The notes under the pieces were generated by a model. That model saw only the letters and a list, made by a program, of their open reading frames with translations. It made no database searches and was not told where the DNA came from. Below, one piece after another: positions 38,363-47,896 of a stretch of DNA of 64,000 nt; the stretch's first letter is position 1, and the number at the start of each line of letters is the position of its first letter. The stretch covers positions 2,728,001-2,792,000 of the forward strand of contig NC_008825.1 in NCBI RefSeq assembly GCF_000015725.1, in the 5' to 3' direction. The DNA is from Methylibium petroleiphilum PM1 (GTDB taxonomy: Bacteria > Pseudomonadota > Gammaproteobacteria > Burkholderiales > Burkholderiaceae_C). The translations under genes were made by a program, and so were the position numbers.

Positions 38363-39121
38363 ATGAGCACAAGCATGACGATGCGCCGCGCTCTGGCCGC
38401 ACCCGGCCTGCTGTGCGCCGTGGCCGCGCTGCTGGTGACGGCCGGCTGCGGCCAGCCGCCCGCCGCGGCCCAGCTGTTCCCGCTGGAACCCGGCCGCTCC
38501 TGGGTCTACCGCACCGTCACCGAACTGGAAGACAACACGCGCGACGAAGAGACGATCACGCTGCGCACGCTGGGCAAGGACACGCTCACCGTGGAGCAGG
38601 CCGCCGAGCCCGGCCCGGCCTGGCACCGCCACAGCGACGGCGGCGCCGACTACTGGCTGCGCGCCGACGACACCGGCATCTACCGCGTGGCCAGCAAGAG
38701 CGAGCTCGACGCCGAGCCGCAGCCCGACGCCACGCGCCGTTACGTGCTGAAGGCGCCCTACACCGTGGGCACGCAGTGGCAGACCGACACCGCGCCCTAC
38801 CTGCTGATGGAGAACACCAATTTCCCGCGCGAGACGCGCCACCGCCACCCGGCGGTGCCCATGCTGTTCAGCATCACCGCGGTGGACACTGCGGTGGAAG
38901 CCGACGGCCGCCGCTACACCGGCTGCACCCAGGTGCAAGGCAACGGCCAGATCCGCATCTTCTCCAGCTCGGTGGGCGGCTGGCGCGACGTGCCCATCGT
39001 GGCGCGCGAGTGGTACTGCCCCGGCGTGGGCCTGGTGCGGCTGGAGCGCGAGGAGTTGGTGGGGTCGAGCGGGTTGGTGTTCGGGGGAAAGCTCGTGATG
39101 GAGTTGGTGGAGGAGAGCTGA
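38363..39121 (+). CDS. Secreted lipoprotein of the ExbB/ExbD-like cluster
   Basis: A 252-residue protein with a lipoprotein signal ending VTAGC, preceded by a hydrophobic stretch. The mature part starts GQPPAAAQLFPLEPGRSWVYRTVTELEDN, a pattern seen in beta-rich periplasmic lipoproteins that begin with 'pL.pG..W.Y'. It contains several aromatic beta strands and three cysteines in the mature part. It is the last gene of the cluster; the accessory island begins after it. Function unknown. Confidence 0.65.
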   Translation: MSTSMTMRRALAAPGLLCAVAALLVTAGCGQPPAAAQLFPLEPGRSWVYRTVTELEDNTRDEETITLRTLGKDTLTVEQAAEPGPAWHRHSDGGADYWLRADDTGIYRVASKSELDAEPQPDATRRYVLKAPYTVGTQWQTDTAPYLLMENTNFPRETRHRHPAVPMLFSITAVDTAVEADGRRYTGCTQVQGNGQIRIFSSSVGGWRDVPIVAREWYCPGVGLVRLEREELVGSSGLVFGGKLVMELVEES

Positions 39122-39241
39122 GGACGGTCTGCTCCGTGCCGAGTCGCGCGAAGGGTCAGTCGTCGCTTCCTGGCGCGCGACTCAGCCAGTACTCGGGGGC
39201 CCCGCTGAGCGGTTCGCATCTGGGTCAGCCGCAGGCGCTGG

Positions 39242-41179
39242 CTATTGCTTGGGTCGGCGTTTGGCAAGCTCGCGTTCTAGCTCCGCATTCTTTCTGCGAA
39301 GGTCCGCGTTCTCGCGCTCGACGCGATGTGACGCTCCGATCTTGTCAAGCGCTTCGGTAAGTATCTCCAACGTCCTCGGCTGGTTCTCTGGCGTGAGTGC
39401 CTGTGCTTCCGCCACGGCGACCAGGCGTTCTTCCGGTGCCTTTAGTCCCTTTTCGTGGGCATCCTTGACAAATCTGTCCCGCAGCGTCTTCATCAGAACG
39501 CCCCGCTGCGCAAAGGCTAGCTCACGCTCCTTGCTCGCCCGTACCATTCTCAGAAGCGTTCTCTCCAACTCGCTAGAGAGACCGGGTCGGTAGCCTTCGA
39601 AAAGAAAAGACTTCATGGCGGAGAGCCCTAGGCTCACACCAGGCATCAATGACACCAGGTACAGCATTGCCGACACCGTACTTACGATCTGGTAGTCCGC
39701 TGCGATCTTGAACTTGTCTTCCACACTGGCGAGGCGCTTGGCAGAACTCACCAGGACGCAGTTTGCAGCCGGGTCTAGAGATCTAATTGTTCGCAGATGA
39801 TGTGCTATCGCTGCATACAGCTGCGCATCGCGTCTGGCCTTGTCCTGCGCATGAGGTGTCTGGGAACGCGTTTCGTCGGCGAGAGAGATCAAGTACTTGC
39901 GGACCTGAACTTCGAGATTCGCCTCACGCGACGACCTTGGCGCCAGTTTCTCCAGGCCGTGATCATAAACAAGCGTCGTCAGCGCGGGCTGCCAGTCATA
40001 GACCTTGGCGCCGCGGAACTGATCGATAAAGCTCTTCCATTGGACTCGTTTGGCGTGTCCGTCCGCAAGAAGACGGCCGAAGGCTCGCACGAAGACATTC
40101 TTAAAGAGAATCAAGCGGTCTTCTGGCGTCCCCGGCAGCAGATGCTGGACATGATCAAACTCTACTTGTGCGATATGCGCGTGCCGTGCGAACTCCTCAA
40201 GAACCGGCTCAGCAACAAGGACCTTGCCGGTGAGTTCCTTCCATCTACGCACCAGCGAAACTACGCCCTCGTGTTCCGGCTCATCAAGACCTACCAGAGA
40301 CAGCAAAACGTCTGTGTCGAGGACAATGTTTGTCTTCTTGAGAAGGTTGGCGACCGCCTCGGCGCTCTGATGCTCAAGGCCCATCGCCGCTGCAGAGATG
40401 AAGCTGGTGGCGAGGCGGATGAGCCACTCTGCGGCTGGGCCTAGGCGATCGGAAAAGATGTCGCGGATGGCAGTGCTAAGTTCGATCTTGCGCTCCGCGG
40501 TGGTGACAGTCGCCGCCACGGCGTCGGCGAGGTCATCCAGGAAGGTGAGCGACGAGCTTCTCGTAGGCTCAGCTGCAACTTCGGCCGTAGCTCCTTCATC
40601 AATCAATGCGGCAATCTCTGCGACTATCTCCTCGCCGCGCGTGATGAAGTACTGCGTAAGGTTGTCTTCAAGTACAAGCCAAATCCGATGAAACTCGTCA
40701 TCCAGAATCGGGAGTTCTATCGACTCTTCTATCTCTGCCTTAATCGCAGCCTTCAGTTGCAGGAGTCGGCCAGCCGCGGCGGATTGCCGCTTCGCAACGT
40801 CAACCTTGCCGGCTCCGGTGATGCGGTATGCCACGCCGTCCGTCTCCACCAGTTTGGACGTCACAAGGACGTCCAAGTGCAGTTTGCAGGTTTCAGCGGC
40901 GATGCTGCGATGGAGGCGGAGTGAGTCAGATAGAGCCTTCGCACAGAGTGCGGCGGTTAGGCTCTGATGTCCGGCAAGCACATCAAGCAAGCCTGCGGCG
41001 TAAGTCGCCTTCCTGATGGAGTCCGAATCGTCAGCAGATGATGCGATCAGCGCAAGGCGGAGACCGCGAAGCTGGGCCCCGTCTGAGGGCTTGGCGGTCA
41101 GAACGCGAACTACATCCGCGATCTCAGGGCCGTAGTACAACTCGGCCAGTTCGTCGGACTTCGCAGCGAGTTCTGCTAG
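39242..41179 (-). pseudogene. C-terminal part of a large PIN-like/nuclease gene split by an IS5-family element
   Basis: The current open frame runs from 41326 to 39242, but its first 49 codons come from the end of the inserted element. The native part starts at the CTAG target copy (41179) and covers 645 residues. Its frame joins exactly to the fragment at 42394-42792 once the element and one CTAG are removed (see findings). Visible regions: a winged-helix-like stretch (DVLVTSKLVETDGVAYRITGAGKVDVAK), a PIN-like region (NIVLDTDVLLSLVGLDEPEHEGVVSLV, later VLVSSAKRLASVEDKF) and a C-terminal coiled coil (ENADLRRKNAELERELAKRRPKQ). Base composition is more A/T-rich than the chromosome. It is probably an inactivated defence-type protein. 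Confidence 0.7.
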
Positions 41180-42389
41180 GGAAGCGCTGATCAACCCGCT
41201 TCGTGACCGCGACTCGGCCGACAGCGGGCGTTGATGGCGACTCGTGAACTCAGAAGTGGCACCGATGAGCCCCTTCTGCGGCACTTCGAGGCCGCTCTCA
41301 GGCCCCCGTTCATGCAGCAGACGCACTGAGGCCTTGGGCCAGCAATCGGCGCCGGGCGATGTACAAGTTGGCCAGCGCAGCGTGCGCCTTCGCGCGAGCT
41401 TCGTTCTTGGAGATCCCGCGGTAGCTGACCTTGCGGTAGCCGAACAGGTTCTTGATGACGTGGAACGGGTGTTCGACGATGGCCCGCACCTGAGCCTTGC
41501 GCCGTTCGAACCACTCGTGCATCGCCTTGGCCGGCCCTTCGGGCATGGCCTTGAGTTGGCCGCGCTTCATGGCGATACGCCAATCCATGTCCTGGCGCAG
41601 CCTGCCCTCTTCCTGCGCCGTCGTGATCTCGTCTCGCCTCTGGATGCCGGTGTAGCCGCTGTCGCCGTGAACTTGGCTCTCCTGGCCATGCAGCAGTTCG
41701 TGCGCGTGCGCCACGTCAGCCTCGTTGGCCGCGGTGCAGACCACGCTGTGGATCAGACCCGACTCGGCATCCACGCCCGAGTGCATCTTCATCCCGAAGT
41801 GCCACTGGTTCCCCTTCTTGGTCTGGTGCATCTCGGGGTCGCGCTTGCCGTCCTCGTTCTTCGTCGAACTTGGCGCGGCAATGATGGTGGCGTCCACCAC
41901 CGTGCCCTGGCGCATCAGCAGCCCACGCTCGGTGAGGTGCGCGTTGACCTCGGCCAGGATGGCCGACGTCAAGTCGTGCTGCTCGAGCAGGCGGCGGAAC
42001 TTCAGCAGCGTTGTGGCGTCGGGTACGTTCTCCCGCCCAAGGTCGATGCCGATGAACTCGCGCATGGCCTGGCTGTCGTACAGCGCGTCTTCCAGTGCCT
42101 CGTCGGCCAGCGTGTACCACTGCTGCAGGAAGTACATGCGCAGCATCCGCGGCACGCCAATCGGCGGTCGGCCCACCTTGCCGCTCTTCGGGTAGTGCGG
42201 CTCGATCAGCGCCTCAAGCCGCGCCCACGGAACCACCACGTTCATCTCGGCCAGGAAGCGCTCCCGGCGCGTCTGGCGCTTCTTGCCGGCGTACTCGGCA
42301 GTGGCAAAACTCGTCTGCTTCATGGCAGCATCATCGCCGCTGAATTCGCCGCACGCCATCGTGGCCTGCACGGATAAATCAGTGCTTCC
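41180..42389 (-). mobile_element. IS5-family insertion sequence, copy 1 (1210 bp)
   Basis: A 1210-bp element. Terminal inverted repeats are GGAAGCGCTGATCAACCC at the left end and GGAAGCACTGATTTATCC read inward from the right (14 of 18 match). Both sides carry CTAG (41176-41179 and 42390-42393), the YTAR-type 4-bp target duplication of the IS5 group. One transposase gene on the minus strand. It is inserted in the coding sequence of a large gene. It looks identical to the copy at 45004-46213 but lies in the opposite orientation. Confidence 0.92.
41310..42371 (-). CDS. IS5-family transposase, copy 1
   Basis: A 353-residue DDE transposase of the IS5 group. An N-terminal DUF772-type domain is seen in RRERFLAEMNVVVPWARLEALIEPHYP...MLRMYFLQQWYTLADEALEDALYD. 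Catalytic acids lie in TVVDATIIAAPSSTKN, HGDSGYTGI and the AIVEHPFHVIKNLFGY segment. The ATG at 42323 (MKQTSFATAEYAGKK) is the typical family start; the ATG at 42371 gives 16 extra residues. The reading frame is intact, so the element may be active. Confidence 0.92.
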   Translation of the reverse strand: MQATMACGEFSGDDAAMKQTSFATAEYAGKKRQTRRERFLAEMNVVVPWARLEALIEPHYPKSGKVGRPPIGVPRMLRMYFLQQWYTLADEALEDALYDSQAMREFIGIDLGRENVPDATTLLKFRRLLEQHDLTSAILAEVNAHLTERGLLMRQGTVVDATIIAAPSSTKNEDGKRDPEMHQTKKGNQWHFGMKMHSGVDAESGLIHSVVCTAANEADVAHAHELLHGQESQVHGDSGYTGIQRRDEITTAQEEGRLRQDMDWRIAMKRGQLKAMPEGPAKAMHEWFERRKAQVRAIVEHPFHVIKNLFGYRKVSYRGISKNEARAKAHAALANLYIARRRLLAQGLSASAA

Positions 42390-42393
42390 CTAG

Positions 42394-42792
42394 ATGGTTG
42401 CCCCCGAGGCACGTAATCGGGAACTTCGAGTCCGTTTCTGCACCTAGTTGAGCCTCGAACTGCGCTCGACGGTGCTCGCTAATTCGGTTGCTGAGGCAGA
42501 AGTAGAGGCGGGAGATGTTGTGTGTAGTTGTACTGATGCGCTCGATGTCTTCTAGAGTCTTGTTGTCAATGTCATCTCTAAGCGAAGAGCAGACGTACAA
42601 GCCCGTAGCCTTCCCGACGCCTACGCCGTCGCGACCGAGATCCCAACTCGCCGACGTTGGGAGGACCTTGGCCCCTCCTTCTATAGCAGAGACAACCGAG
42701 TTCGCGAAGCGCTCGAAGCGAGCATCGTTGTTCTCGTTCGCGAGGACCTGCTCAATGACTGCGACTTTGAACGGAGAGTTCTCGATGGGCAT
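42394..42792 (-). pseudogene. N-terminal part of the gene split by the IS5-family element; nuclease-like
   Basis: The ATG at 42792 starts 133 codons of native sequence (MPIENSPFKVAVIEQVLANENNDA...) ending at the CTAG target copy. The element then supplies LGKH and a stop at 42379. The fragment contains NSVVSAIEGGAKVLPTSASWDLGRDGVGVG followed by GLYVCSSLRDD, resembling the core of PD-(D/E)xK restriction-endonuclease-like domains (acidic residue, GRDG, then a beta strand). That assignment is tentative. The frame continues in the pseudogene at 39242-41179. A longer in-frame start at 42888 lies in the neighbouring IS element. Confidence 0.65.
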
Positions 42793-42873
42793 TCGGGTTG
42801 TCCGGCAAGCGAGAGGGGCAGGAGTCTCTAGTCTAAGGCGCAGTGCGCGCTGAACGTCGCTTCTGGGACCTAA

Positions 42874-44058
42874 GGAAGGTCTGCACAACGCGACGCGCGG
42901 TGCGGTTTGAAGTGACGTGATGACGGTGACGCGCCGAAGCCCTCGATCCGGTCTGTTCTGCGGCTCGGTCGTGCCGTTTCGCAGGTGCTTTTGGCACCTC
43001 GCGAGCCCGCTGCGGGTATCGCGGACGCACTCATCCCGGCGCTCGCATCAACTGCCGCCTGGCCATCCACAGGTTCGACAGTGCGAACAGCGTGACGATC
43101 TGCGCGGTGTTCTTCGCAAGCCCTCGGTATCGCACCTTGGTGAACCCGAACTGCCGCTTGATGACGCGGAACGGGTGCTCGACCTTCGCGCGGATGCTGG
43201 CCTTCATCTTCTCGATGCGCTCGGCAATGAAGTCGGGCTCGATGAAGGGGTTGAGCGTCCTACGCAGGCCCGGGCGCATGGCCACATGCCAGGTGGGCCC
43301 CTTGGCCTCGGGCCGCTTGTGCACGCCCCGGTAGCCCGCGTCACCGAAGGCAGCTTCTTCGTCTCCGTGCAGCAGCGCCCCGGCCACGTTCAGGTCGTTG
43401 ACGTTGGCCCCCGTGGTGGCCACGGTATGCACCAGACCCGACTGCGCGCCCACGCCGATGTGGGCCTTCATGCCGAAGTACCAGTTGTTGCCCTTGCGGG
43501 TCTGCTTCATCTCCGGATCGCGCTCACCGTCGGCGTTCTTGGTCGAACTCGGCGCGGAGATCAACGTGGCGTCCACCGCCGTGCCCGTGCGCATCATCAG
43601 GCCCTTGTGCTGAAGCAGATCGTTGACCACCCGCAGCATGTCCACGGCCAGGTTGTGGCGCTCCAGCAGGTGGCGAAACCTCAGGATGGTGGTCTCATCG
43701 GGCAGTCGTGCCGTCACGCTGTCGAGCTTGGCGAACTCCCGGTGCAGCGGCACGTCGTGCAGCGCCTCTTCCATCGCCGGGTCGCTCAGTCCGAACCACT
43801 GCTGCAGGTAGTGGATGCGCAGCATGGTCTCGATGCCGAAGGGCGGTCGGCCGGTCTTGGCCTTGGGGTAGTGCGGCTCGACGATCTGCACCAGCACGCC
43901 CCACGGCACCACGCGTTCCATCTCTTCCAGGAACTCGCGCTTGCGCGTCTTCTTGGTCGGCAGGTTCAGGCCCAGGCCCAGCTGCTTCATGGTCGTCTTG
44001 CTCCGATGCGTCGTCGCTTCAACTCATGCAAGATTCGGGCGGGTTTTGCAGACCTTCC
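42874..44058 (-). mobile_element. IS5-family insertion sequence, second type (1185 bp)
   Basis: A 1185-bp element different from its neighbours. Terminal inverted repeats GGAAGGTCTGCACAACGC (left) and GGAAGGTCTGCAAAACCC (read inward from the right) match at 16 of 18 positions. CTAA flanks both ends (42870-42873 and 44059-44062), a YTAR target duplication. Inserted directly at the stop codon of the SLATT gene, in the recombination core of an attC-like site. It carries one transposase on the minus strand. Confidence 0.9.
43031..43990 (-). CDS. IS5-family transposase, second type
   Basis: A 319-residue DDE transposase of the IS5 group. N-terminal domain: REFLEEMERVVPWGVLVQIVEPHYP...MLRIHYLQQWFGLSDPAMEEALHD. 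Catalytic segments: TAVDATLISAPSSTKN, FGDAGYRGVHKRPEAKG, and KVEHPFRVIKRQFGF with the glutamate. It is intact over its full length and related to, but clearly distinct from, the transposase of the two 1210-bp copies. Confidence 0.92.
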   Translation of the reverse strand: MKQLGLGLNLPTKKTRKREFLEEMERVVPWGVLVQIVEPHYPKAKTGRPPFGIETMLRIHYLQQWFGLSDPAMEEALHDVPLHREFAKLDSVTARLPDETTILRFRHLLERHNLAVDMLRVVNDLLQHKGLMMRTGTAVDATLISAPSSTKNADGERDPEMKQTRKGNNWYFGMKAHIGVGAQSGLVHTVATTGANVNDLNVAGALLHGDEEAAFGDAGYRGVHKRPEAKGPTWHVAMRPGLRRTLNPFIEPDFIAERIEKMKASIRAKVEHPFRVIKRQFGFTKVRYRGLAKNTAQIVTLFALSNLWMARRQLMRAPG

Positions 44059-44129
44059 CTAACGTTTGACATGCGAGACATCACCCGGCTCGCCGGGTGA
44101 CGTCCTCTCGATGGAAGGGTAGGTTTTGC
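44059..44129 (-). other. attC-like site at the end of the SLATT cassette, cut by an IS
   Basis: Read on the minus strand. The 5' box is GCAAAAC (44129-44123, degenerate RYYYAAC). A strong imperfect hairpin follows (GACGTCACCCGGC facing GCCGGGTGATGTC). The 3' box GTTAGGT is perfect GTTRRRY, but its last two bases (42869, 42868) now lie beyond the 1185-bp IS, which split it. The site overlaps the coding end of the SLATT gene, whose stop TAG lies in the 3' box. Confidence 0.5.
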
Positions 44130-44757
44130 CCGCAGAACTGAGCGGAACGGTTGCTTGAAGCGATGCATCTTTCAAAAGTACATAGAGAAGAACAACAAGT
44201 ATCAGGAGCGGAATTAGGTGTAGCGCGATGTCAAGTTGAAGTCGACACCAGCAGATCATGCGGTCCAAGGTGCCGACCTTGTAGTGCTTCGCGTACCTCT
44301 TGATCTGCGCAACCTTGTAATCAACGTCTTCATGGTTCTCATACATCTTGAGGAGACTTTCGTACTGCTCGCTCAGTGCATCAATTTCTTGTTGCTCGTC
44401 CCGGCTTATGGCCATCTCCAACTTCCGCGAAACCGCGTTAATCTCGATTGCTCCTGCGTGCATCTTCTCTGCGCGTTCTCCGTACTTTCTTCCGCTAACA
44501 AGCAGTGACACTACAAGAATGAGCATGGAGACGATTGCGGCAGATAGGTTCACCGCGCCTGAAGGTACTGAGAGCCGAACTCCAAATGGCTCTAGGAGCG
44601 AAATGACGACGACGCCAAGCGAACACATGGTGATGGAGAAGAGCGAGACGCTCTCGTGGCGTCTTAGCCTTTGAACCGCTGAGAATCGGGCAGCCGCAGT
44701 TACCCGGATAGCGCGTAGCTTGTGCTCAGCAGGCGTTTCAATCGCTTCTTGCGTCAT
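44059..44757 (-). CDS. SLATT-domain two-TM protein, candidate defence effector
   Basis: A 232-residue protein. The ATG at 44757 (MTQEAIETPAEHKLRAIRV) follows GAGGGAA; the longer frame upstream is not credible. An N-terminal charged helix (TAAARFSAVQRLRRHESVSLF) is followed by two membrane segments (SITMCSLGVVVISLLEP, VNLSAAIVSMLILVVSLLVSG), a long helical region (KYGERAEKMHAGAIEINAVSRKLEMAI...) and a third hydrophobic stretch (LIPLLILVVLLYVLL). This order fits SLATT-type effectors, which are thought to disturb the membrane in abortive defence. The family call is mine from pattern; confirmation needs a profile search. It is followed by an attC-like site and the split nuclease/PIN gene. Confidence 0.6.
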   Translation of the reverse strand: MTQEAIETPAEHKLRAIRVTAAARFSAVQRLRRHESVSLFSITMCSLGVVVISLLEPFGVRLSVPSGAVNLSAAIVSMLILVVSLLVSGRKYGERAEKMHAGAIEINAVSRKLEMAISRDEQQEIDALSEQYESLLKMYENHEDVDYKVAQIKRYAKHYKVGTLDRMICWCRLQLDIALHLIPLLILVVLLYVLLKDASLQATVPLSSAGKTYPSIERTSPGEPGDVSHVKR

Positions 44758-44813
44758 CGAACGTTCCCTCAAAAATCGTTCTTGTTCGACGGAGTGGCGA
44801 ATCAACTGGCGAG

Positions 44814-44870
44814 GCCTAACGATTGCGTTCAGCCGCGCCGTTAGGCGTCGGCTGCAACTGCCGGTTAGGC
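44814..44870 (-). other. attC-like integron recombination site upstream of the SLATT gene
   Basis: 57 bp, minus-strand reading. 5' box GCCTAAC (44870-44864) and 3' box GTTAGGC (44820-44814), both perfect consensus. The interior has a stem CAGCCG/CGGCTG and an inner hairpin GCCTAACGGCGCGG-like around GTTAGGC at 44840-44846. It closes the cassette of the repeat protein and precedes the SLATT cassette. Confidence 0.65.
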
Positions 44871-45003
44871 TGCCCTGCGGCTCGCGTAAGCCCTGGCGGT
44901 GCGAAGTCTGGCCACGCGGCCCGCAAGGGTGACCTGCTCGAATTGACCAAGCGTGGACTTGCGTCGCCAACGATGGGTGGATTGGGCCACATGCGCTGCC
45001 TAG

Positions 45004-46213
45004 GGAAGCACTGATTTATCCGTGCAGGCCACGATGGCGTGCGGCGAATTCAGCGGCGATGATGCTGCCATGAAGCAGACGAGTTTTGCCACTGCCGAGT
45101 ACGCCGGCAAGAAGCGCCAGACGCGCCGGGAGCGCTTCCTGGCCGAGATGAACGTGGTGGTTCCGTGGGCGCGGCTTGAGGCGCTGATCGAGCCGCACTA
45201 CCCGAAGAGCGGCAAGGTGGGCCGACCGCCGATTGGCGTGCCGCGGATGCTGCGCATGTACTTCCTGCAGCAGTGGTACACGCTGGCCGACGAGGCACTG
45301 GAAGACGCGCTGTACGACAGCCAGGCCATGCGCGAGTTCATCGGCATCGACCTTGGGCGGGAGAACGTACCCGACGCCACAACGCTGCTGAAGTTCCGCC
45401 GCCTGCTCGAGCAGCACGACTTGACGTCGGCCATCCTGGCCGAGGTCAACGCGCACCTCACCGAGCGTGGGCTGCTGATGCGCCAGGGCACGGTGGTGGA
45501 CGCCACCATCATTGCCGCGCCAAGTTCGACGAAGAACGAGGACGGCAAGCGCGACCCCGAGATGCACCAGACCAAGAAGGGGAACCAGTGGCACTTCGGG
45601 ATGAAGATGCACTCGGGCGTGGATGCCGAGTCGGGTCTGATCCACAGCGTGGTCTGCACCGCGGCCAACGAGGCTGACGTGGCGCACGCGCACGAACTGC
45701 TGCATGGCCAGGAGAGCCAAGTTCACGGCGACAGCGGCTACACCGGCATCCAGAGGCGAGACGAGATCACGACGGCGCAGGAAGAGGGCAGGCTGCGCCA
45801 GGACATGGATTGGCGTATCGCCATGAAGCGCGGCCAACTCAAGGCCATGCCCGAAGGGCCGGCCAAGGCGATGCACGAGTGGTTCGAACGGCGCAAGGCT
45901 CAGGTGCGGGCCATCGTCGAACACCCGTTCCACGTCATCAAGAACCTGTTCGGCTACCGCAAGGTCAGCTACCGCGGGATCTCCAAGAACGAAGCTCGCG
46001 CGAAGGCGCACGCTGCGCTGGCCAACTTGTACATCGCCCGGCGCCGATTGCTGGCCCAAGGCCTCAGTGCGTCTGCTGCATGAACGGGGGCCTGAGAGCG
46101 GCCTCGAAGTGCCGCAGAAGGGGCTCATCGGTGCCACTTCTGAGTTCACGAGTCGCCATCAACGCCCGCTGTCGGCCGAGTCGCGGTCACGAAGCGGGTT
46201 GATCAGCGCTTCC
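45004..46213 (+). mobile_element. IS5-family insertion sequence, copy 2 (1210 bp)
   Basis: A 1210-bp element apparently identical to copy 1 (41180-42389), in the opposite orientation. The transposase is on the plus strand. Terminal inverted repeats as in copy 1. Flanked by CTAG at 45000-45003 and 46214-46217. It entered at the stop codon of the repeat-protein gene, which keeps its TAG from the target copy. Confidence 0.92.
45022..46083 (+). CDS. IS5-family transposase, copy 2
   Basis: The predicted protein (353 residues) is identical to that of copy 1: same N-terminal DUF772-type region, catalytic segments VVDATIIAAPSSTKN, HGDSGYTGI and AIVEHPFHVIKN. ATG at 45022, or more typically at 45070 (MKQTSFATAEYAGKK). 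Intact frame. Sequence identity of the two copies means the duplication is recent. Confidence 0.92.
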   Translation: MQATMACGEFSGDDAAMKQTSFATAEYAGKKRQTRRERFLAEMNVVVPWARLEALIEPHYPKSGKVGRPPIGVPRMLRMYFLQQWYTLADEALEDALYDSQAMREFIGIDLGRENVPDATTLLKFRRLLEQHDLTSAILAEVNAHLTERGLLMRQGTVVDATIIAAPSSTKNEDGKRDPEMHQTKKGNQWHFGMKMHSGVDAESGLIHSVVCTAANEADVAHAHELLHGQESQVHGDSGYTGIQRRDEITTAQEEGRLRQDMDWRIAMKRGQLKAMPEGPAKAMHEWFERRKAQVRAIVEHPFHVIKNLFGYRKVSYRGISKNEARAKAHAALANLYIARRRLLAQGLSASAA

Positions 46214-46495
46214 CTAGCCTTTGATCTCGAACTGAGGCATTCCGTTGTAGCCGTCGACATGCGAAACCGTACGATAAATCTTGCTACCTTTGATCTGGTA
46301 TTGGGGCATGCCGTTGTAGCCATCCACATGGGAGACTGTGCGGTATATCTTGTCGCCCTTGATCTCGTATTGAGGCATGCCGTTGTAGCCGTCAACGTGC
46401 GAGACGGTCCGATAAATTTTCGTTCCCTTGATCTCGTACTGCGGCATTCCGTTGTAGCCGTCGACATGGGAAACGGTGCGATAGATCTTTGACAT
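46214..46495 (-). CDS. Cassette protein of four tandem 23-residue repeats
   Basis: A 93-residue protein made entirely of four repeats of a 23-residue unit, IYRTVSHVDGYNGMPQ plus a variable end (YEIKG, YEIKG, YQIKG, FEIKG), joined by T, D, S and K. There is no signal peptide. The pattern of short beta strands and glycine turns suggests a small beta structure, perhaps a propeller blade array, but I do not recognise the family. ATG at 46495, 27 bp after the attC-like site at 46523. The gene is an integron-style cassette, cut at its stop by an IS5-family element that leaves the stop intact. Confidence 0.75.
   Translation of the reverse strand: MSKIYRTVSHVDGYNGMPQYEIKGTKIYRTVSHVDGYNGMPQYEIKGDKIYRTVSHVDGYNGMPQYQIKGSKIYRTVSHVDGYNGMPQFEIKG
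46214..46495 (-). repeat. Four 69-bp tandem repeats in coding sequence
   Basis: Each 69-bp unit encodes the same 23-residue motif, but the units differ by several mostly synonymous changes (for example in the CACGTCGACGG/CACATGGATGG-type stretch). The repeats are therefore not a fresh duplication; protein sequence has been kept while DNA drifted. Confidence 0.85.
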
Positions 46496-46522
46496 CGTGT
46501 CGGTCTCGATTCGAATTGGTGG

Positions 46523-46582
46523 GCCTAACGTTCGACGTAAGGGGCCTGCCGCAGGCAGGTCCCCTTGACGGAGGGGTTAGCC
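46523..46582 (-). other. attC-like integron recombination site
   Basis: 60 bp, minus-strand reading. 5' box GGCTAAC (46582-46576), 3' box GTTAGGC (46529-46523, perfect). The interior forms a long stem (AAGGGG-ACCTGCC facing GGCAGGCCCCTT) with a three-base loop, the folded hairpin the integron integrase recognises. The stop codon TAA of the preceding 61-residue ORF lies in the 5' box, as in typical cassettes. This is the clearest attC of the window. Confidence 0.75.
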
Positions 46583-46762
46583 ACCATTTTGCGCGACACG
46601 AGAAAGCCAGACTGCAAGGCTAAAGAGCGCGAGGCCGCCAAGCATGTGCCAAATGCTTTGCCCGTGCCCGAAGGAAAGCCAGCCGATGCCGCCGAGCAGG
46701 GCTACCAGTAGCCAAACGAACACTTTGACCAGGTGGCCATTCGGTCGCTCGCCTTCAGACAC
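46577..46762 (-). CDS. Small two-TM cassette protein
   Basis: A 61-residue protein read from the GTG at 46762, which follows GAGG by six bases and overlaps the stop of the preceding gene. An in-frame ATG at 46780 is an alternative. Sequence: a short polar start (VSEGERPNGHL), two hydrophobic segments (VKVFVWLLVALLGGIGWLSF and SIWHMLGGLALFSLAVWLS) and a short tail. The stop lies in the attC-like site that follows. Function unknown. The upstream gene overlaps it by eight bases. Confidence 0.55.
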   Translation of the reverse strand: MSEGERPNGHLVKVFVWLLVALLGGIGWLSFGHGQSIWHMLGGLALFSLAVWLSRVAQNGG

Positions 46763-47045
46763 GAACGACCTCGACTTCATGTGGCTGCTTGGTGGAAAAG
46801 GACTTGGCGAACTCAATGACTTCGGCCTCCGACTCACCAGGGTGCGAAGTGGTTGTGATGAACTGGGTTCCAGAGCCGTCGGCTCCGACGCACAACCAGT
46901 CAAGAGCGTCCTCCCACTTTTCGGCGTCGACGCCGACGACGCAGAACAGTTCGATTTGGCTTTCAATCAGTTTCTGCAACAACGGATAGCCCCGGTCTTG
47001 AGAGTAGCCAGAGGAGGACACCAGAACGATCTTTCCGCTGTGCAT
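46755..47045 (-). CDS. Small cassette protein, hypothetical
   Basis: A 96-residue protein starting at the ATG at 47045 (MHSGKIVLVSSSGYSQDRGYPLLQKLIESQIELFCVVGVDAEKWEDALDWLCVGADGSGTQ...). A short alpha/beta protein with a central VVGVDAEKWEDALDWL segment. The longer frame to 47192 has a weaker start. I do not recognise it. It is the first gene of the cassette after the attC-like site at 47097-47185, and its last bases overlap the next ORF. Confidence 0.55.
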   Translation of the reverse strand: MHSGKIVLVSSSGYSQDRGYPLLQKLIESQIELFCVVGVDAEKWEDALDWLCVGADGSGTQFITTTSHPGESEAEVIEFAKSFSTKQPHEVEVVRV

Positions 47046-47096
47046 GGTATGGCGGCTAACTAGATTTAGACACGCGCGACCGTACTGGCGCCGATG

Positions 47097-47185
47097 ATCT
47101 AACGCAACCCCTTTACCCAAGAAAAAGCCTGCTGCTTCATGCGAGAAAAGCCCCGCCCTTTCGGTCAAACACCGGTGCGTTAGGC
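47097..47185 (-). other. attC-like integron recombination site at the island edge
   Basis: 89 bp, minus-strand reading. 5' box GCCTAAC (47185-47179), 3' box GTTAGAT (47103-47097), both consensus. The outer stem TAACGCA/TGCGTTA pairs perfectly; the inner part is less symmetric. It sits 42 bp after the stop of the response-regulator gene, exactly where chromosomal GC content resumes, so it marks the island boundary. Confidence 0.6.
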
Positions 47186-47227
47186 GACCCAAATAGACCC
47201 GGCTTCACCGCGACCGCCATCACCCCC

Positions 47228-47896
47228 CTACACCCCCGGCCCCCCCAACCCATGCTCCCGCGCGTAGTTCAACAACTCCACCGCACTCCCCACGCCCAGC
47301 GCCTGGCGGATGCGTGTCTGGTAATTGGCCACGGTCTTGGTGCTGAGGCGCAGCGTCTGCGCGATCTCTTCCACACCGCGGCCGGCCAGCAGCTGCTGCA
47401 GGATGTCGAACTCGCGGCTCGACAGCCGGGTGTGCGGTGGACCGCCCTCGCTGCGCGCCGCCAGCGCGGCCACGTCGGGTGACAGCGCGATCTCGCCGCG
47501 CGCGGCCTGGCGCACCGCCGTCACCAGCACCTCGGGGGCGCTGCTCTTGGTCACGAAGCCGGCCGCGCCGGCGCGCAGGCACTGGTCGAGCATGGCCGCG
47601 CTGTCGTGCATGGTGAACACCAGTACCGACAAGTCGGGCCGCCGCTGCGCCAGGCGGCGCAGCAGCTCCAGCCCGCTGCGGCCGGGCATGGAGAGGTCGA
47701 GCACCAGCAGGTCGATGTCGTCGCCGCTGCTGGCGCCGCCGGCCAGCGCGTTGTAGGCCGACTCGGCGTCGCCGTACTCCGCCACCACGGCGATGTCGGC
47801 CTCCAGCTCCAGCAGGCGGCGGTAGCCGGCGCGCACGACCGCGTGGTCGTCGGCCAGCGCCACACGCAAGGGACCGGGCAATGGGCTCACGCTCAC
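47228..47896 (-). CDS. NarL/FixJ-family response regulator
   Basis: A 222-residue response regulator. The receiver domain has LADDH near residue 15-18, phospho-acceptor Asp67 in LLVLDLSMPGRSG, and the Lys in FVTKSSAPE. A C-terminal LuxR-type HTH lies at about 155-215 (LSSREFDILQQLLAGRGVEEIAQTLRLSTKTVANYQTRIRQALG). The start overlaps the sensor kinase stop by four bases, so they form one two-component pair. Similar pairs (ExaE-like) control alcohol dehydrogenases in other bacteria; here the target is unproven. Confidence 0.9.
   Translation of the reverse strand: MSVSPLPGPLRVALADDHAVVRAGYRRLLELEADIAVVAEYGDAESAYNALAGGASSGDDIDLLVLDLSMPGRSGLELLRRLAQRRPDLSVLVFTMHDSAAMLDQCLRAGAAGFVTKSSAPEVLVTAVRQAARGEIALSPDVAALAARSEGGPPHTRLSSREFDILQQLLAGRGVEEIAQTLRLSTKTVANYQTRIRQALGVGSAVELLNYAREHGLGGPGV

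Follow-up and report, generated by a model that had tools for sequence, protein, structure and literature searches.

Among the described systems that come closest to the locus treated here, the Effector-TPR-GreA/B-C-PIN conflict system has a large protein that carries a PIN domain at its C terminus and, in some of its versions, a restriction endonuclease (REase) effector at its N terminus (PMC8195603), while DS-3 consists of a single protein whose PIN RNase is essential and which has no cognate antitoxin (PMC13092281). In addition, genes of the SLATT_5 family, one of which lies beside our gene, are reported to accompany 82% of the UG17 reverse transcriptases (PMC8934634), and the DRT10 defence system is made up of a UG17 reverse transcriptase (RT), a non-coding RNA and a SLATT protein (PMC12632851), as far as the available parts of these four reports go. 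In this work we describe a gene that is split by an IS5-type insertion sequence (IS) in the window, namely the whole stretch of 64,000 nucleotides analysed, at positions 2,728,001 to 2,792,000 of contig NC_008825.1 of Methylibium petroleiphilum PM1. This organism is an environmental betaproteobacterium, and its assembly comprises two contigs with 4,643,639 bases, 4,044,195 of them in contig 1. Our reading, to which we assign a probability of roughly 0.6, is that a single IS-split gene belongs to an unnamed REase-PIN family, that this family probably serves as a defence nuclease against phages or mobile elements, and that the system is most likely dead in PM1. The splitting of a gene by an IS is nothing unusual in itself; what deserves interest is the unnamed family and its SLATT_5 neighbour.

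One gene split by an IS5-type element

The two halves make up a single gene encoding about 778 residues, which is concluded because a target duplication, a shared reading frame and intact homologues covering both halves are found together. It runs on the minus strand from 42792 to 39242 with 133 and 645 codons in frame (Table 1). The initial annotation had proposed that excision of the element together with one CTAG restores a single frame, and the computed frame bears this out, for when one CTAG is kept the two halves stay in the same frame and remain open for 778 codons. Likewise, the open reading frames (ORFs) at 39242-41326 and 42379-42888, which had been expected to carry IS-derived ends without excision, do so in the ORF list. 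The start at the ATG at 42792 places a conserved FE motif near its position in the homologue family, and the junction of the halves falls at the end of the REase-like domain in the family alignment.

Table 1. Features of the split gene and its surroundings, in positions of the window
Feature	Position	Strand	Remarks
3' half: helical middle, PIN-like domain, coiled-coil-like tail	39242-41179	-	1,938 nt, 645 codons + stop
Target duplication CTAG, left copy	41176-41179		flank reading
IS5-type element, 1,210 bp, interrupting the gene	41180-42389	-	transposase ORF 41310-42371 (-)
Target duplication CTAG, right copy	42390-42393		flank reading
5' half, REase-like domain	42394-42792	-	399 nt, 133 codons, ATG at 42792
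Second, different IS5-type element, 1,185 bp	42874-44058	-	CTAA flanks at 42870-42873 and 44059-44062; transposase 43031-43990, 49% identical to first
SLATT_5 two-transmembrane protein gene	44059-44763	-	PF18160 E 9.4e-53; PADLOC RTasSLATT E 5.1e-36
Inverted identical copy of first element	45004-46213	+	CTAG flanks

The element had been assigned to the IS5 family with a CTAG on either side, and this assignment stood. The transposase of the identical inverted copy matches DDE_Tnp_1 and DUF772, the terminal inverted repeats are imperfect with 11 of the first 12 bases matching, and a short target duplication is present, all of which belong to a DDE element of the type that we take to be IS5. The PM1 genome holds 12 full-length copies with 100% identity, and the perfect 4-bp duplication was seen in all eight flank pairs inspected (CTAG in five, TTAG in two and TCAG in one); because all eight show a perfect duplication, the CTAG pair around the interrupting element is regarded as a true target duplication rather than a chance one. 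Moreover, since the 12 copies are identical, the insertion into the nuclease gene is probably recent. Three IS5-type insertions are crowded within about 5 kb (41176-46217), and two that the initial annotation had not mentioned, at 42874-44058 (shortly upstream of the nuclease start) and 45004-46213, each struck the stop codon of a minus-strand ORF, which is embedded in the target site.

The search for full-length homologues, which the initial annotation had called for, was successful. With the C-terminal half as query, two matches besides PM1 (G123 and G097) were obtained among 398 genomes of the order, and they lie within intact single ORFs (743 and 744 codons). The G097 protein (P0002) in turn found G572 among 369 genomes of the class as well as the window gene at E 7.6e-5, so that the match between the window and the family is mutual. 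An alignment of these three proteins (A2) then retrieved at least 21 loci from genome contigs, three of which repeat the known genes (L029 is G097, L031 is G123 and L035 is G572). One uninterrupted ORF of 723-829 codons is present in 19 of the at least 21 loci, though the 829 codons of L032 may contain an upstream extension; at L047 the homologue is broken into a stretch of 433 codons and another piece, and the locus L049 reaches its contig end and shows short ORFs only. A typical member is a single gene for some 740 residues. Among 398 genomes of the phylum, one further match was obtained, to the intact but more distant member G830.

The window protein is divergent, with roughly 15-23% identity to the family, and its halves were placed separately by hhalign on a profile of the 19 intact proteins from which it was excluded. 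Residues 20-120 of the N half align to family columns 40-143 at E 1.6e-6, and residues 158-391 of the C half to columns 331-559 at E 1.7e-7; the best E of 60 shuffle controls per half was 0.043 for the N half and 0.0053 for the C half, and the reversed sequences gave 0.59 and 0.044, respectively. The joined 778-codon frame covers 465 columns at E 2.3e-9. The N-half link is visible only via the family profile, as neither BLAST of the N half against the protein P0001 (E 0.16, not significant) nor hhalign to the single G830 protein detected it. Both halves accordingly match ordered parts of intact single-gene homologues, which is what places the window gene in the REase-PIN family. The initial annotation had held that homologues consistently split into two genes at the junction, or none spanning it, would speak against one gene; because the separate halves match, in order, a family of single genes, neither was the case. 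That two separate genes should abut the element by chance is hardly conceivable, being refuted by the perfect duplication, the kept frame and the intact homologues covering both halves.

Domains of the REase-PIN family

The initial annotation had recognised no named family, and none appeared here: the window halves match no Pfam or NCBIfam model above its cut-off. Alignment A3 also has 19 members, but with G830 and without L032 in comparison with the 19 of the scripted alignment, and it gives no credible match but isolated single-member ones (for example SelO 0.0041, PRK10026 0.00099 and Mrr_cat 0.068). The family looks like a combination of an REase-like N-terminal domain, a helical or winged-helix middle and a PIN-like C-terminal domain. 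As for the first of these, the N domain of 6 A3 members out of 19 is matched by the PADLOC model Aga_REase, with E 1.6e-7 at best, and a viral match found by Foldseek to a restriction endonuclease has probability 1.00 (E 0.15, not significant). Across all 19 members of the scripted alignment the residues E30, D53, D57 and Q75 do not vary, and position 77 is occupied by S or T. The nuclease-like region that had been suggested for the N terminus is thereby retained in outline, while the motif glutamine is not kept in the window protein itself.

In the AlphaFold model of P0002 the middle part is nearly all-helical with a small wing, which agrees with the winged-helix-like stretch noted before; none of the 18 homologues in the C-half alignment has the coiled-coil-like tail noted with it, which was judged by eye in the window protein. 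For the C-terminal part, the PIN fold has three to four conserved acids, and the set of D441, E482 (L029 numbering), N605 and D606 fits this pattern, the first three being conserved in 19/19 and D606 in 15/19 members of the scripted alignment. Below threshold, PIN_8 was matched in the window C half (E 0.052) and PIN_12 in P0001 (E 0.1). The C part was also compared with a profile of 13 PIN sequences, drawn from two genomes, and scored 20.8 (P 0.017) in the expected register; the N part reached 12.5 and the middle part 14.6. This result is suggestive only. At the level of fold, Foldseek returned two RNA-exosome chains, presumably the PIN-bearing Rrp44 subunit, with probability 0.93 and 0.90, PIN chains of toxin-antitoxin systems (0.14-0.41) and a PIN-like protein of viral origin (0.99), each at E >0.1. 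The model of the window C half has a PIN-like order of strands and helices at low confidence, and a profile search of the PDB gave eight matches at E 0.048-0.47, none of them credible. Altogether the earlier proposal of a PIN-like region finds weak but consistent evidence in sub-threshold Pfam matches, profile and fold, with no match above threshold.

Distribution, neighbours and proposed function

The searches indicate that the family is unnamed, sporadic and phylogenetically scattered. Apart from PM1, the C half matched none of 59 near relatives and none of 368 genomes of the taxonomic family, the latter set overlapping the near-relative and order samples; the large genome searches score few first-look candidates per genome, hence absence there is not proof. 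Peptide patterns of the C half gave 60 pattern matches in genome contigs with none confirmed, and no match to it was obtained in plasmids, phages, viral contigs or PDB sequences. Similarly, the N half had no match in plasmids and P0002 none in plasmids or phages, and of 76 pattern matches of alignment A2 in viral contigs none was confirmed. The record titles of the homologues include Proteobacteria, Actinobacteria, Nitrospirae and Bryobacterales. In the literature searched, no paper on this locus was found and none was recognised as describing an REase-PIN family.

Known defence genes lie near 5 of the at least 21 loci, ORFs having been listed around 19 of 21 (L031 and L035 were examined as L014 and L016) and neighbour proteins that looked interesting by eye having been scanned in two sets of 10. 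These are a type II restriction-modification neighbour at L029 and L031 (scanned in L015 and L014), a type I-like REase at L038, PDC-S11 and PD-T4-4-like neighbours at L044, and type I-like REase, GajA-like and Mrr_cat neighbours at L047. In the neighbour scan, 4/10 proteins were without a Pfam match at E <=0.01 and 1/10 without a PADLOC match. A scattered, unnamed family whose single gene combines a pair of nuclease-like domains and has defence genes nearby at several loci is worth attention; the IS-split gene shows how such a family can escape annotation. Intact homologues exist in some other bacteria, among them Hansschlegelia, Marinobacterium and Sulfuritalea.

As a possible mechanism, the sensing or binding of foreign nucleic acid would probably fall to the N-terminal and middle parts, and the PIN domain, as the likelier active nuclease, would be kept inactive until infection and then cleave RNA, resulting in restriction or abortive infection. 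In PM1 the insertion would part the REase-like domain from the PIN domain and leave the protein dead or crippled; loss of function is the simplest reading there, because the REase-like/winged parts are separated from the PIN domain.

Several points weigh against this defence reading. The usual REase active site is D...(E/Q)xK with a lysine expected, while the motif of the family ends in QxS/T rather than ExK in 19/19 members of the scripted alignment, and the window protein has V at the position of the invariant Q; for these two reasons its REase-like domain may be catalytically inactive. At 20.8, the score against the PIN profile barely exceeds the maximum of 17.7 from column shuffling (n=40). 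The AlphaFold models have a predicted confidence (pLDDT) of 76.6 for P0002 (medium) and 49.8 for the window C half (poor), and Foldseek reached E <=0.001 in 0/270 and 0/82 PDB matches and in 0/380 viral ones, the best-ranked matches by E-value being mostly unrelated. Moreover, inspection by eye showed no defence neighbour at several loci, such as L035, which lies among LPS-type (lipopolysaccharide) genes, and the tally of defence neighbours comes from proteins picked by eye for their resemblance to defence genes.

Two other readings concern the gene alone. A role in nucleic-acid repair or housekeeping would be in line with L037, where two large recB/recD-like ORFs (by eye) lie upstream of the family member; but the very patchy distribution (0/59 near relatives, 2/398 of the order and 0/368 of the taxonomic family in overlapping samples) and the defence genes near five loci make it improbable. 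At L037 (251-8219) the family member directly follows these recB- and recD-like ORFs. Still more improbable is a free-acting PIN RNase in PM1, in the form of a C-terminal fragment that owes its expression to read-through from the transposase on the same strand: the transposase ORF and the ORF 39242-41326 are co-directional and overlap at 41310-41326, but nothing beyond a mechanical GTG points to a start or ribosome site, and a free PIN RNase is expected to be toxic. Some expression of the C fragment is conceivable, but a probable defence nuclease that the insertion has most likely inactivated is still preferred.

Another pair of readings involves the SLATT_5 gene, which lies upstream of the nuclease start on the same strand with its stop codon inside the CTAA target of the second element. 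It is doubtful, though conceivable, that the two genes form one operon in which the nuclease, and not an RT, controls or complements a pore-forming effector, and which the IS insertions have broken. In its favour, the distance from the SLATT_5 stop to the nuclease start is 77 nt without the second element, the upstream gene is SLATT_5 at high significance, and PM1 has no RVT_1 match at E <=0.001 in a search that was positive in 3/14 control genomes, which makes it a genome with a SLATT_5 gene and without detectable RT. At L039, moreover, a CyanoTRADDas_TM two-transmembrane protein lies some 2 kb upstream, separated by a further membrane-like ORF. On the other side, SLATT_5 was seen beside no other family locus (ORF lists by eye from first residues, most neighbours being unscanned), and it is also found where no partner is obvious, for instance on an Azotobacter plasmid. 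SLATT_5 is present in 6/399 genomes of the order, PM1 counted; none of the other loci showed an REase-PIN gene within 1.5 kb on each side, so that the pairing rests on one genome, and in two other genomes (L018 and L019) an RT-like ORF is found upstream of SLATT_5 by eye. The SLATT_5 query retrieved seven plasmid records and no match in phages or viral contigs. The stronger version, an RT-less defence operon in which the REase-PIN protein would replace the RT as sensor or processor controlling the membrane effector and which a burst of IS insertions would have silenced, is unlikely in our view.

Beyond SLATT_5, the ORF 46214-46495 (-) encodes four tandem repeats of 23 residues (69-bp unit, residues like SKIYRTVSHVDGYNGMPQYEIKG) and ends at the inverted IS copy with its stop codon in the CTAG target; its relatives, with 61-79% identity, are found in six plasmid records, four from E. 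coli, one from Enterobacter and one from Cupriavidus. The ORF 46758-47192 (-) matches DUF7684 just over the cut-off (27.6 vs 26 bits, E 2.7e-6).

Comparison with known systems

In its N-terminal REase-like domain the family resembles the Argonaute-associated REase proteins (PADLOC Aga_REase) and Mrr-like endonucleases; however, the TIR and PNTD parts of the PADLOC model are unmatched in the family, and its motif QxS/T differs from the usual (E/Q)xK. With DRT10/UG17 (PMC12632851, PMC8934634), as far as described in the available parts of these reports, PM1 shares the upstream SLATT_5 gene, but the combination of an RT and SLATT_5 is not found in PM1, which has no RVT_1 match, and a nuclease-like gene follows SLATT_5 instead. 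As the single Rfam match over 39000-47300 is far under its gathering score (E 0.42), this region seems to hold no known RNA family. DS-3 (PMC13092281), compared by description only, resembles the family with its PIN-like domain in being a one-protein system that depends on a PIN RNase and has no cognate antitoxin, and the available part of that description mentions no REase domain. The Effector-TPR-GreA/B-C-PIN system (PMC8195603), again from the part available, is alike in that its protein is large, has its PIN domain at the C terminus and in some versions begins with an REase effector; the family differs from it at the sequence level, where the 19 members of A3 have no GreA/GreB or TPR Pfam match at E <=0.1, and in its middle part, which in the P0002 model is nearly all-helical with a small wing.

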